56,233 nt of DNA from Bacteroidota bacterium (GTDB lineage: Bacteria; Bacteroidota; Bacteroidia; Bacteroidales; Prolixibacteraceae), in contig JAUYMU010000102.1 in NCBI GenBank assembly GCA_030698405.1, positions 1 through 56,233 on the forward strand, in the 5' to 3' direction. Positions 42,598 through 54,043 of this stretch are shown here, in pieces; the stretch's first letter is position 1; the number at the start of each line of letters is the position of its first letter. Position numbers and translations under genes: made by a program. The notes under the pieces are model-generated. The model was not told the origin of the DNA and did not search any database. It saw only the letters and a list, made by a program, of their open reading frames with translations.

Positions 42598-42635
42598 AAA
42601 AAAAGAGTTGCAAAATTTTACTCTTGCAACTCTTT
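42598..42635 (-). terminator. Terminator of the tRNA-Ala transcript
   Basis: A 12-bp perfect stem, AAAGAGTTGCAA (42602-42613) with TTGCAACTCTTT (42624-42635), is followed on the minus strand by seven U from 42604 down to 42598. It lies 10 bases after the tRNA 3' end. Confidence 0.85.
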
Positions 42636-42645
42636 GATTTTCAGG

Positions 42646-42719
42646 TGGAGAATATCGGAATCGAACCGATGACCTTTTGACTGCCAGTCAAACGCTCTAG
42701 CCAACTGAGCTAATCCCCC
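42646..42719 (-). tRNA. tRNA-Ala (anticodon GGC)
   Basis: The 74-base minus-strand sequence folds as a full cloverleaf: acceptor GGGGGAT with ATTCTCC, D stem GCTC/GAGC, anticodon stem TTTGA/TCAAA around loop CTGGCAG, and T stem ATCGG/CCGAT with loop TTCGATT. The anticodon is GGC. The third acceptor pair is G-U, the identity element of tRNA-Ala, and the discriminator is A. CCA is not fully encoded. It is the last unit of a transcript that begins with four tRNA-like units upstream. Confidence 0.93.
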
Positions 42720-42720
42720 G

Positions 42721-42826
42721 TATTCAAATATTTTAATCCTACCTTTATTTTTGGAATTGAACCGATGACCTTCCCGATTTCCATCGGGACGCTCTAGTCC
42801 CGAACCTTCGGGAAGCTAATCCCCCG
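42721..42826 (-). repeat. tRNA-like unit 1 of 4 (106 bp)
   Basis: On the minus strand it begins GGGGGATTAGCT like the tRNA, then TCCCGAAGGTTCGGGA in place of the D loop, CTAGAGCG as in the tRNA, TCCCGATGGAAATCGGGA in place of the anticodon arm, and AGGTCATCGGTTCAATTCC as in the T arm. The 3' acceptor strand is lost. It is adjacent to the real tRNA-Ala. Confidence 0.85.
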
Positions 42827-42932
42827 TATTCGAATATTTCAATTCTGCCTTTATTCTTGGAATCGAACAGATGACCTTCCCGATTTCTATCGGGACGCTC
42901 TAGTCCCGAACCTTCGGGAAGCTAATCCCCCG
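42827..42932 (-). repeat. tRNA-like unit 2 of 4 (106 bp)
   Basis: It has the same layout as unit 1. The anticodon-arm substitute is TCCCGATAGAAATCGGGA, with the stem intact and the loop changed. The T-arm loop TTCGATTCC is as in the tRNA, but the stem start reads ATCTG. Confidence 0.85.
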
Positions 42933-43039
42933 TATTTCAAATATTTCAATTCTGCCATTATTCTTGGAATCAAACCGATGACCTTCCCGATTTCTATCGG
43001 GACGATCTAGCCCCGAACCTTCGGGAAGCTAATCCCCCG
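42933..43039 (-). repeat. tRNA-like unit 3 of 4 (107 bp)
   Basis: It has the same layout with scattered changes: GGGGCTAGATCG replaces GGGACTAGAGCG after the D hairpin, costing one pair there, and the T loop reads TTTGATT. The anticodon-arm hairpin is unchanged from unit 2. Confidence 0.85.
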
Positions 43040-43144
43040 TATTCAAATATTTCAATCCTACCTTTATTCTTGGAATTGAACCGATGACCTTCCCGATTTC
43101 AATCAGGACACTCTAGTCCCGAACCTTCGGGAAGCTAATCCCCC
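43040..43144 (-). repeat. tRNA-like unit 4 of 4 (105 bp), first in the transcript
   Basis: It has the same layout. The anticodon-arm hairpin TCCTGATTGAAATCGGGA has one C-to-T change, giving a G-U pair. A promoter lies directly upstream at 43156-43183, so this is the first transcribed unit. Confidence 0.85.
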
Positions 43145-43155
43145 TTTCGAGGCGA

Positions 43156-43183
43156 CAAATATATAAATATTTTTCATCTGCAA
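43156..43183 (-). promoter_or_regulatory. Promoter of the tRNA-like array and tRNA-Ala
   Basis: On the minus strand TTG (43183-43181), 17 bases, then TATATTTG (43163-43156) fit the Bacteroidota TTG / TAnnTTTG promoter. The predicted start is a few bases before the GGGGG of unit 4. No other clear promoter lies between this and the real tRNA. Confidence 0.6.
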
Positions 43184-43778: not shown

Positions 43779-44468
43779 ATGGAACTCAAGAAATCACCCA
43801 AAGCAGATCTCGAGAACAAGAGGAATATCTTTGTTCAGCTAGGGTTGGTGGTCGCTCTTGCTATCTGTTTGTACGGTTTTGAAGCAACAAACAAGGTTAG
43901 TCAGGTTGATTCTCTCGGATCAATGTCTGACCAGACAGTAGAAGAAGAGATTATTCCAATCACCCGTCAGGATCAGGTACCACCACCACCGCCACCACCA
44001 CCACCCAAAGTGGTTGATATGTTGGTGATTGTTGATGACAATACCGATATTCAGGACGAATTGGAAATTGAAGATTCAGAAGCAACCGATAAAACTGCTA
44101 TTACTGCTGTAATGCAGGTTTCAGCTGCCAAAGAAGAAGAAAATGAAGACACTCCGGTATTCTTCATCGTGGAAGAAATGCCTGAATTCCCGGGTGGTCA
44201 GTTGGCTTTGCGTAATTTTATTGCACAGTCGGTTAAGTATCCGGTTATTGCTCAGGAAAACGGCATTCAGGGAAAAGTATTTGTTAATTTCGTTGTTGCA
44301 AAAGACGGAACTATAACCAATGCAAAAATTTTCCGAGGTGTCGATCCTTCATTGGACAAAGAAGCTTTACGTGTTGTGAACAGCCTTCCAAAATGGAAAC
44401 CTGGAAAACAAGGTGGAAAAGCGGTAAGGGTTTCTTACACTGTTCCAATCAACTTTGTACTTCAGTAA
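43779..44468 (+). CDS. TonB-like energy transducer, paralogue 1
   Basis: The 229-residue protein has a short cytoplasmic start (KKSPKADLENKRN), one membrane helix (about 18-35), a proline run PPPPPPPPP at 68-76, an acidic linker and a TonB C-terminal domain from about residue 140 (EFPGGQLALRNFIAQSVKYP ... VNSLPKWKPGKQGGKAVRVS-type end). It transmits proton-motive force to TonB-dependent receptors in the outer membrane. It shares start and end motifs with the gene at 46044, with hflX between them, and is followed by its own terminator. Confidence 0.88.
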   Translation: MELKKSPKADLENKRNIFVQLGLVVALAICLYGFEATNKVSQVDSLGSMSDQTVEEEIIPITRQDQVPPPPPPPPPKVVDMLVIVDDNTDIQDELEIEDSEATDKTAITAVMQVSAAKEEENEDTPVFFIVEEMPEFPGGQLALRNFIAQSVKYPVIAQENGIQGKVFVNFVVAKDGTITNAKIFRGVDPSLDKEALRVVNSLPKWKPGKQGGKAVRVSYTVPINFVLQ

Positions 44469-46043: not shown

Positions 46044-46730
46044 ATGGAACCCAAAAAAACACCTCGGGCAGATCTCGAAGGCAAAAGGAAATTCTTCTTT
46101 GAATTAGGGTTGATCCTGGCAATTGCAATTTGTTTGTATGGTTTTGAATCGACAACTAAGAAGAATCAGCTAATTTCTCTTGGAGCTCTCGACAAAAATG
46201 CGGCTGTTGAAGAACTAACTCCATTGGTTCGTCTGGAAGAAGTTAAACCAATCATTCCACCGTTGCCGAGAGTAGCTGACCTAATTCGAATTGTTGAGAA
46301 TGATACAGAGCTTGACGAAGAATTGGACATTAAAGATTCAGGAGGTGACAACTACACTGCAATTTATGCTGAACCACAATTGTTTGCCTCCAAGGAAATA
46401 GAGAGAGATGATGCAACAATTTTCTATGCTGCGGAAGAGATGCCGGAATTTCCGGGCGGATATCAGGCTTTACTGAACTTTTTGAGTCAGAATATTAGAT
46501 ACCCGTCGATTGCTTCTGAAAGCGGTATCACCGGAAAAGTTACCGTTAATTTCGTGGTAAATAAAGACGGTTCAATTTCTGATGCGACAATACTTCGTGG
46601 AGTTGACCAGGCGCTTGATAAAGAAGCATTGAGGGTAATCAACAGTTTGCCAAAGTGGAAACCCGGCAAACAGGCAGGAAAACCTGTACGTGTTTCTTTC
46701 TCAGTTCCCATTAATTTTAAACTTCAATAA
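46044..46730 (+). CDS. TonB-like energy transducer, paralogue 2
   Basis: The 228-residue protein is a paralogue of the one at 43779: KKTPRADLEGKRKF at the start, a membrane helix at about 18-35, and a TonB C-terminal domain from EFPGGYQALLNFLSQNIRYP to a WKPGKQAGKPVRVSFSVPIN ending. It lacks the polyproline run, carrying only PIIPPLPR there, so its periplasmic reach may be shorter. The two genes probably arose by duplication and now may serve different receptors. Confidence 0.88.
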   Translation: MEPKKTPRADLEGKRKFFFELGLILAIAICLYGFESTTKKNQLISLGALDKNAAVEELTPLVRLEEVKPIIPPLPRVADLIRIVENDTELDEELDIKDSGGDNYTAIYAEPQLFASKEIERDDATIFYAAEEMPEFPGGYQALLNFLSQNIRYPSIASESGITGKVTVNFVVNKDGSISDATILRGVDQALDKEALRVINSLPKWKPGKQAGKPVRVSFSVPINFKLQ

Positions 46731-53639: not shown

Positions 53640-54043
53640 GCCTTCAAGAAAATGAAAGAACTGAGTTGATCAAGTACAGGCTTGAAGAAGCCAGAGAAAC
53701 GATTACAGATGTTCAGCTTTTGATTGACAACAACCGGTTGAGAGCTGCCGTAAACCGTATTTATTATGCCATGTTTTATTCTCTGCTTGCACTCGGATTA
53801 GCCTACCAATTTGAAACCTCAAAGCACCAGCAATTACTCGGTTGGTTCAATAAGAATTTTATTCACGAAGGATTAATTGATGCCAAATTTGGCAAAATCA
53901 TAAACAAAGCATCAAACAGAAGGACTCAAGGAGATTACGAATCGTATGTTGAGTTTGACAAAGCTGTTATTCTTGAAATGTCCGATGAAATGAAAGAATT
54001 TATTTCAGAGATTGAACGGTTTCTTAACCAAAATAATCTATGA
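53636..54043 (+). CDS. HEPN domain protein (toxin-like)
   Basis: The 135-residue all-helical protein has the HEPN features RAAVNRIYYAMFYSLLALGL and a late NRRTQGDYESYVEFD segment. It overlaps the MNT gene by 4 bases (ATGA), and its own end overlaps the start of the next gene by 4 bases. HEPN proteins of this type cut RNA in toxin-antitoxin modules. Both partners look intact, unlike the three broken modules elsewhere in the window. Confidence 0.85.
   Translation: MSLQENERTELIKYRLEEARETITDVQLLIDNNRLRAAVNRIYYAMFYSLLALGLAYQFETSKHQQLLGWFNKNFIHEGLIDAKFGKIINKASNRRTQGDYESYVEFDKAVILEMSDEMKEFISEIERFLNQNNL

Follow-up and report, generated by a model that had tools for sequence, protein, structure and literature searches.

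The window analysed here, positions 1 to 56,233 of contig JAUYMU010000102.1 of a Prolixibacteraceae genome (GCA_030698405.1), contains on its minus strand an array of four head-to-tail units, at 42720-43144, that occupies the space between a promoter-like site and an intact tRNA-Ala(GGC) gene with its intrinsic terminator (Table 1). TRF detects the array as a repeat with a period of 106, 4.1 copies and a score of 739, and an independent repeat search gives spacings of 106, 106, 107 and 106. Together with ARAGORN, Rfam and a terminator scan, these results bear out the order of features proposed in a preliminary description of the locus, namely four tandem units, then tRNA-Ala(GGC), then a strong terminator. 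Elsewhere in the window, two similar proteins, encoded at 43779-44468 and 46044-46730 and presumably TonB-like, flank a GTPase that we take to resemble HflX.

Table 1. Features of the tRNA-Ala(GGC) locus in window coordinates. All features are on the minus strand, so each unit starts at its higher coordinate.
Feature	Position	Strand	Basis or detail
Promoter-like site, TTG-17-TATATTTG	43156..43183	-	Sequence reading; congener leaders
Unit 1, partial tRNA-Ala copy, 106 bp	43039..43144	-	D-loop hairpin 43117-43132; anticodon-arm hairpin 43091-43108, stem with one T-G pair
Unit 2, 107 bp	42932..43038	-	Anticodon-arm hairpin 42985-43002; D hairpin 43011-43026, one T-G pair
Unit 3, 106 bp	42826..42931	-	Hairpins 42878-42895 and 42904-42919
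Unit 4, 106 bp	42720..42825	-	Hairpins 42772-42789 and 42798-42813
Intact tRNA-Ala(GGC)	42644..42719	-	ARAGORN; Rfam RF00005, 67.8 bits
Intrinsic terminator, 14 pairs and T tail	42602..42635	-	Terminator scan

Each unit reproduces the 5' two thirds of tRNA-Ala, matching the gene exactly at its 5' end, and bears two hairpins of the TCCCGA..TCGGGA type, the first within the D loop and the second at the anticodon arm; it extends into the start of the T arm and closes with an A+T-rich linker that, by eye, is leader-like. The pattern TCCCGA-N1..10-TCGGGA has six matches in the window, all of them within the array, against 0.04 expected. The uniformity previously ascribed to the hairpins holds for most of them: the D hairpin is exact in three of the four units, as is the anticodon-arm hairpin, but unit 1 has TCCTGATTGAAATCGGGA and unit 2 has TCCCGAAGGTTCGGGG. 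Similarly, the junction CTAGAGCG, described as common to the units, reads CTAGAGTG in unit 1 and CTAGATCG in unit 2. The anticodon arm, described as replaced outright, is replaced in its stem but not in its loop: the loops TGGAAA and TAGAAA are similar to the native loop CTGGCAG. In a test for tRNA character (cloverleaf, acceptor stem, T arm and 7-nt anticodon loop) the array units fail, the 3' strand of the acceptor being missing, and ARAGORN and Rfam, run over the array, call only the intact tRNA-Ala, with no Rfam family at threshold over the units. The claim that the units cannot decode is upheld. We conclude that the array is real and non-decoding, and that its units are unable to mature.

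The promoter had been described as consensus-like. TTG-17-TATATTTG is indeed present in the sequence, and TATATTTG precedes tRNA-Ala in 12 of 15 unit-free congeners (leaders counted by eye), but the site is absent from the output of a sigma-70 scan of the window. The promoter type, together with the taxa of the named matches described below, points to a Bacteroidota host. Judged from the anatomy of the locus, a single precursor transcript across the array is plausible.

Twenty-three genomes of the genus were scanned for the same arrangement; 17, including the source genome, have an intact tRNA-Ala, and six gave no full match. Within 500 bp upstream of the intact gene, 15 of the 17 genomes have no unit, one (G009) has a lone unit with a normal D arm, and the source genome has four, on which count we rejected the array as a regular component of the tRNA-Ala leader. 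In G019, whose neighbouring permease is 97% identical, promoter, tRNA and terminator are kept and nothing lies between promoter and tRNA. We conclude that the array is probably a recent gain, with unit loss a possible history for some of the 15 unit-free congeners.

These observations bear on the proposal, made in the preliminary description, that the hairpins are functional. In such a reading, the units would be transcribed within the tRNA-Ala leader as an RNA that serves as a processing signal, sponge or regulator, with hairpins maintained by selection. The position of the array between a promoter-like site and a terminator is consistent with such a role, as are the hairpins that remain paired from unit to unit and the folding of the 558-nt array stretch, which is stronger than that of 100 shuffles (z = -5.2); however, perfect palindromes fold well regardless of use, copy number among congeners is 0, 1 or 4, and no Rfam family is matched at threshold. 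The off-consensus stems in units of relatives comprise 5 with T-G pairs and 7 with mismatches (real tRNAs and stray matches set aside by eye), and so show no preference for wobble over mismatch; the window's own two stem changes both make T-G pairs and are too few for a test. The preliminary description itself took a scattering of the same hairpins as a repeat to speak against function, and the source genome has exactly this, with 84 copies of TCCCGA-N1..12-TCGGGA vs. 2 for a reversed control pattern. The functional proposal is thus left unsupported, and we regard it as quite improbable.

Units of this class are found at other tRNA genes and in other genomes. In the source genome, units flank tRNA-Met (contig 14), one on each side, and tRNA-Lys (contig 53), which has a single downstream unit besides its upstream units. 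A wide pattern, AGAGC-N0..3-hairpin, occurs in 72 of 140 genomes of the family, some of these genomes having it only at non-tRNA sites; among the 48 family genomes listed, nine show, by eye, only the AGAGCNTG form, which is non-tRNA-like in the loci viewed. A stricter pattern that includes tRNA context yields at least 118 stretches in named genomes, many of them in MAG contigs that are possibly misbinned, and at least one of them (L058) having the look of a chance match. Among the 80 of 118 titles listed, the taxa are mostly Bacteroidota, with Acidobacteria, Dehalococcoidales, Kiritimatiellae, Marinimicrobia, Ignavibacteria, Verrucomicrobia, Nitrospirae, Armatimonadetes, Patescibacteria and more. 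Units are also present in a cultured relative, Algoriphagus aquaeductus (L119). Three viral contigs match the unit pattern; one of them, from a viral collection (L271), presents, within ~700 bp, unit, unit, GIY-YIG-like frame (by eye), tRNA-Pro and unit. At one locus (L164, 6135-6740), eight units with an 86-bp period lie downstream of tRNA-Thr, and no GIY-YIG gene was found there. A description of the arrangement was not found in the open-licence PMC papers searched. The tandem tRNA pseudogenes of Photobacterium are similar in being tandem non-decoding tRNA copies inside a tRNA transcription unit; to our knowledge they have no stem swap or nuclease link.

The mapped loci (the 118 listed tRNA-context loci and L168) allow comparison of units upstream and downstream of their tRNA. 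The 118 listed loci contain 170 pattern units, of which 124 lie no more than 900 bp from an intact tRNA on the same strand and 107 pass a half-score filter. After filtering, upstream units keep the tRNA 5' half better in 52 of 52 cases (39 of 39 loci), and downstream units keep the 3' half better in 44 of 55 cases (35 of 44 loci); unfiltered, the corresponding counts are 59 of 63 and 49 of 61. A replicate reproduced the upstream tendency (28 units, median 0.97 vs. 0.34) but not the downstream rule (11 units, medians 0.81 and 0.44), all but two of its downstream units coming from one Met lineage of the family in which the T arm is also altered.

We assessed loop retention across the class with a single unit for each combination of locus, isoacceptor and side (n = 83, listed loci), a set in which units from related hosts are non-independent. 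Compared with the anticodon loop of the adjacent tRNA, the sequence between the hairpin arms has a mean match of 3.54, vs. 2.56 (sd 0.09) under permutation (0 of 2000), and permutation of isoacceptor groups gives 3.28 vs. 2.40 (0 of 20,000). The native loop orientation fits better in 54 units and the inverted orientation in 11, with 18 ties, and the inverted match is weak (66 of 5000 permutations as high). The 5' stem of the native tRNA equals TCCCG in 0 of 83 cases. Loop retention was replicated in other, previously unused loci (p = 0.0014, n = 22). By isoacceptor, the unit's own loop ranks top in 9 of 18 groups; the groups in which it does not are Met (8th), Val-GAC (last), Ile, Gly-UCC, Pro-UGG and four others. 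Of the 83 units, in genomes other than the source genome, 21 have a 17-nt arm, and 3 of these 21 retain the anticodon of the neighbour. Because of the loop-match permutations, the preference for native orientation and the replicate, we conclude that in units of this class the anticodon stem has been swapped to TCCCGA/TCGGGA, and that the native loop tends to stay. Simple whole-hairpin insertion, considered initially, was abandoned after the loop test, and we know of no insertion mechanism that replaces a hairpin stem as a unit while keeping its loop.

tRNA genes are attachment sites of integrative islands, and a division of tRNAs at the anticodon loop is also seen in congeners. Pieces of tRNA-Ala(GGC) spanning 29/30/32/33-75 lie apart from the intact gene (L264, L265, L267, L268, L258, L269; six 3' pieces viewed), and pieces spanning 1-39 are listed at G001:C1:3018156 and G015:C46:1448 and meet the 3' pieces in the anticodon loop. 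These scattered pieces may mark attachment sites of islands that crossed over in the anticodon loop; a 1-39 fragment in G022 was dismissed as such a site, since the piece stops at a contig end (L259). If the units themselves arose through island integration, they would be tRNA halves left behind when a recombinase crossed over within the anticodon loop, and the rule by which halves are kept does look alike. However, the units extend beyond the loop into the variable and T regions, their stems are swapped, they are arranged in tandem, and no island separates them from the tRNA; we therefore consider an origin in island integration very improbable.

The palindrome itself is not confined to tRNA copies. 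It is present at least once in 237 of 247 genomes of the phylum, and several of the copies viewed outside tRNA-like units are embedded within larger inverted repeats or repeat elements. The source genome (G000) has a dispersed element, CAGCCTG-[TCCCGAT..ATCGGGA]-GCAAAGGATA, at 16 places, with a central stem of either TCCCGA..TCGGGA or CCCCGA..TCGGGG; in five copies the outer base is changed on both sides of the pair (CCCCGAT..ATCGGGG). Other palindromes occupy the anticodon arm in GIY-YIG loci picked without reference to TCCCGA: TGGCGCC..GGCGCCA at tRNA-Pro (L214) and CTCCGAC..GTCGGAG at tRNA-Lys (L217). In two further loci picked in this way, a palindrome lies in the T loop (L228) and TCCCGA is found again (L230). 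REP elements have as their partner a Y1 transposase, RAYT. With its many dispersed copies the TCCCGA..TCGGGA palindrome resembles REP elements, a likeness judged on dispersal; it differs from them in that its arms replace tRNA anticodon stems while the loop stays, and in that the companion gene encodes a GIY-YIG protein. PMC3733652 describes REP elements as GTAG- and CGTC-tagged small dispersed palindromes. The suggestion in the preliminary description that a REP-like hairpin had colonised an amplified tRNA gene therefore came close, but missed the retention of the loop; the polarity rule and the GIY-YIG genes beside many relatives were likewise not part of that description.

At the listed loci, a GIY-YIG gene separates the tRNA from its unit in 27 of 55 downstream cases vs. 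2 of 52 upstream cases. Of 65 tRNAs with any unit, 32 have a GIY-YIG gene within 350 bp downstream, vs. 7 of 64 unit-free tRNAs (p = 2e-6), but no such enrichment is seen where the units are all upstream (4 of 23 vs. 7 of 64 unit-free, p = 0.47). In the source genome, each of the three small GIY-YIG genes has an intact tRNA on one side and a palindrome-bearing altered tRNA copy on the other; the fourth GIY-YIG match is a 624-codon frame that is UvrC-like by size. On contig 6, the copy that follows the GIY-YIG gene (L167, 1845-1921) is a full-length tRNA-Val-like sequence with anticodon arm TCCCGGTGTAACCGGGA, called tRNA-Tyr by ARAGORN, yet 91% identical to the adjoining tRNA-Val. The window contains no GIY-YIG gene or convincing remnant, the best tblastn match (E = 0.010) lying at 53759, far from the array. 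For upstream-only arrays such as that in the window, the nuclease link is unproven.

The tRNA-linked protein, encoded outside the window, matches the Pfam GIY-YIG domain (3.6e-16) and PDB 1zg2 (1e-6), and a model of it (pLDDT 91.7) retrieves with Foldseek 1zg2 (4.9e-5), Slx1 (1.3e-3), I-TevI (0.049) and UvrC (0.24). Residues Y17, G19, R27, H31 and E63 are invariant in an alignment of 16 proteins. As modelled, the protein is a GIY-YIG protein of the Slx1 lineage, with a predicted fold nearest to 1zg2 (UPF0213) and then to Slx1. PMC1564403 places UPF0213 (1zg2/1ywl) among Slx1-lineage GIY-YIG nucleases, and PMC6902002 reports that Slx1 cuts branched DNA. The proteins analysed here share with UPF0213 a single small domain with conserved Y, YxG, R, H and E, but differ in adjoining one tRNA isoacceptor, in having several copies per genome, and in being often flanked by direct repeats.

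When isoacceptor identity is mapped on a tree of 31 of these proteins, it requires 10 changes vs. 17.7 when shuffled (0 of 200); support is weak at 20 of the 28 inner branches, and some rows are long. Restricting the tree to Bacteroidota (24 rows) gives 6 changes vs. 12.8 (0 of 500), and with 21 class-named rows isoacceptor requires 7 vs. 10.5 (0 of 200) and host class 11 vs. 12.8 (17 of 200 as low). Clustering is also seen for host phylum (4 changes vs. 5.9, 0 of 200), and, as read from the sequences, the isoacceptor grouping could come from old vertical linkage. By analogy, the isoacceptor fidelity resembles that of homing endonucleases faithful to one gene. Free-standing and intron homing endonucleases of I-TevI type have a GIY-YIG domain and lineages faithful to a target gene, and the proteins here share the domain and may share the fidelity; they differ in that no intron or intein is present, an intact tRNA adjoins the gene, cutting is putative, and the fold match to I-TevI is weaker than that to Slx1.

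When GIY-YIG loci are selected on Pfam score alone, 17 of 26 have flanking direct repeats, as do 3 of 3 in the source genome, vs. 0 of 87 control windows; three of the 29 loci from the phylum were too short, and the controls came from other loci, mostly of the same genus, unmatched for gene type. The flanking repeats are tRNA copies, tandem GIY-YIG copies or dispersed palindromes (e.g. TGTCACCCTGAGCTTGTCGAAG), and only ~5 of the 29 Pfam-chosen loci are at tRNA copies. Across 247 genomes of the phylum, GIY-YIG and palindrome counts show a moderate correlation, uncorrected for descent (rho = 0.45); one genome has 15 GIY-YIG matches and zero TCCCGA hairpins. At seven loci (L211, L215, L218, L219, L220, L222, L236), the small GIY-YIG gene lacks a called tRNA in its vicinity and is flanked by direct copies of dispersed palindromes. 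At another (L227), an RNase P RNA (979-1478, minus) directly adjoins a same-strand GIY-YIG match.

The main rival to a nuclease-linked origin is one without a nuclease, in which part of a tRNA gene was duplicated in tandem, decayed, and was passively colonised by a REP-like palindrome, the GIY-YIG genes being separate selfish genes that also favour tRNA loci. The dispersal of the palindrome, partly inside larger inverted repeats and repeat elements, agrees with passive colonisation, as do the occupation of tRNA-copy arms by other palindromes and the upstream-only arrays without GIY-YIG excess, and for upstream-only arrays like that of the window this account fits about as well as the nuclease-linked one. 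It leaves unexplained the upstream/downstream polarity, the GIY-YIG clades that follow isoacceptors and, if insertion was simple, the replacement of a stem around a native loop. We judge it rather unlikely, though to be reckoned with.

The reading we tentatively favour, at somewhat under even confidence, is that the units are decayed tRNA copies rewritten by mobile palindromes, as part of a tRNA-directed, GIY-YIG-linked selfish system. We favour it because the palindrome is dispersed, the class is recurrent, the locus shows gain, loops are retained, halves are kept with polarity, the GIY-YIG gene is specifically placed and the GIY-YIG tree follows isoacceptors; it is weakened because the window has no GIY-YIG gene, upstream-only tRNAs show no enrichment, the downstream replicate failed, the loop match is missing in some groups, few of the Pfam-chosen GIY-YIG loci are at tRNA copies, GIY-YIG and palindrome counts correlate only moderately, and the proteins also group by host phylum. 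According to this selfish-system hypothesis, the nuclease would act on hairpin-forming tRNA DNA, and the unit class would be the remains of a system directed at tRNA genes. Repair from neighbouring copies and dispersed palindromes would generate partial copies, and the stem swap would leave copies that are no longer a target, or that are unable to recombine harmfully with the real gene. Inner halves would be lost, since recombination there would leave only a dead stem-swapped tRNA, whereas recombination in the outer half would restore a normal gene. In the window, the tandem array of non-decoding partial tRNA-Ala copies with leader-like linkers, lying after the native promoter and ahead of the intact gene, would then be a nuclease-free solo by-product, transcribed as a long 5' leader and removed by RNase P.

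A more specific version, which we think unlikely, is hairpin exchange: one Slx1-like GIY-YIG lineage per tRNA gene would process the extruded anticodon hairpin, and repair would overwrite the stem with a shared palindrome while the loop is kept. If hairpin exchange were true, the mobile unit would be a stem sequence rather than an insertion cassette, and the system would span bacterial phyla.

The arrangement recurs in several phyla at tRNA genes, which are essential, and seems undescribed in the open-licence PMC papers searched. If the favoured reading is true, hairpin stems are replaced as units with the loop retained. For the many small GIY-YIG genes known in Bacteroidota the arrangement offers a natural context, and near-tRNAs of this kind may turn up in tRNA annotation and in studies of tRNA fragments from these bacteria.
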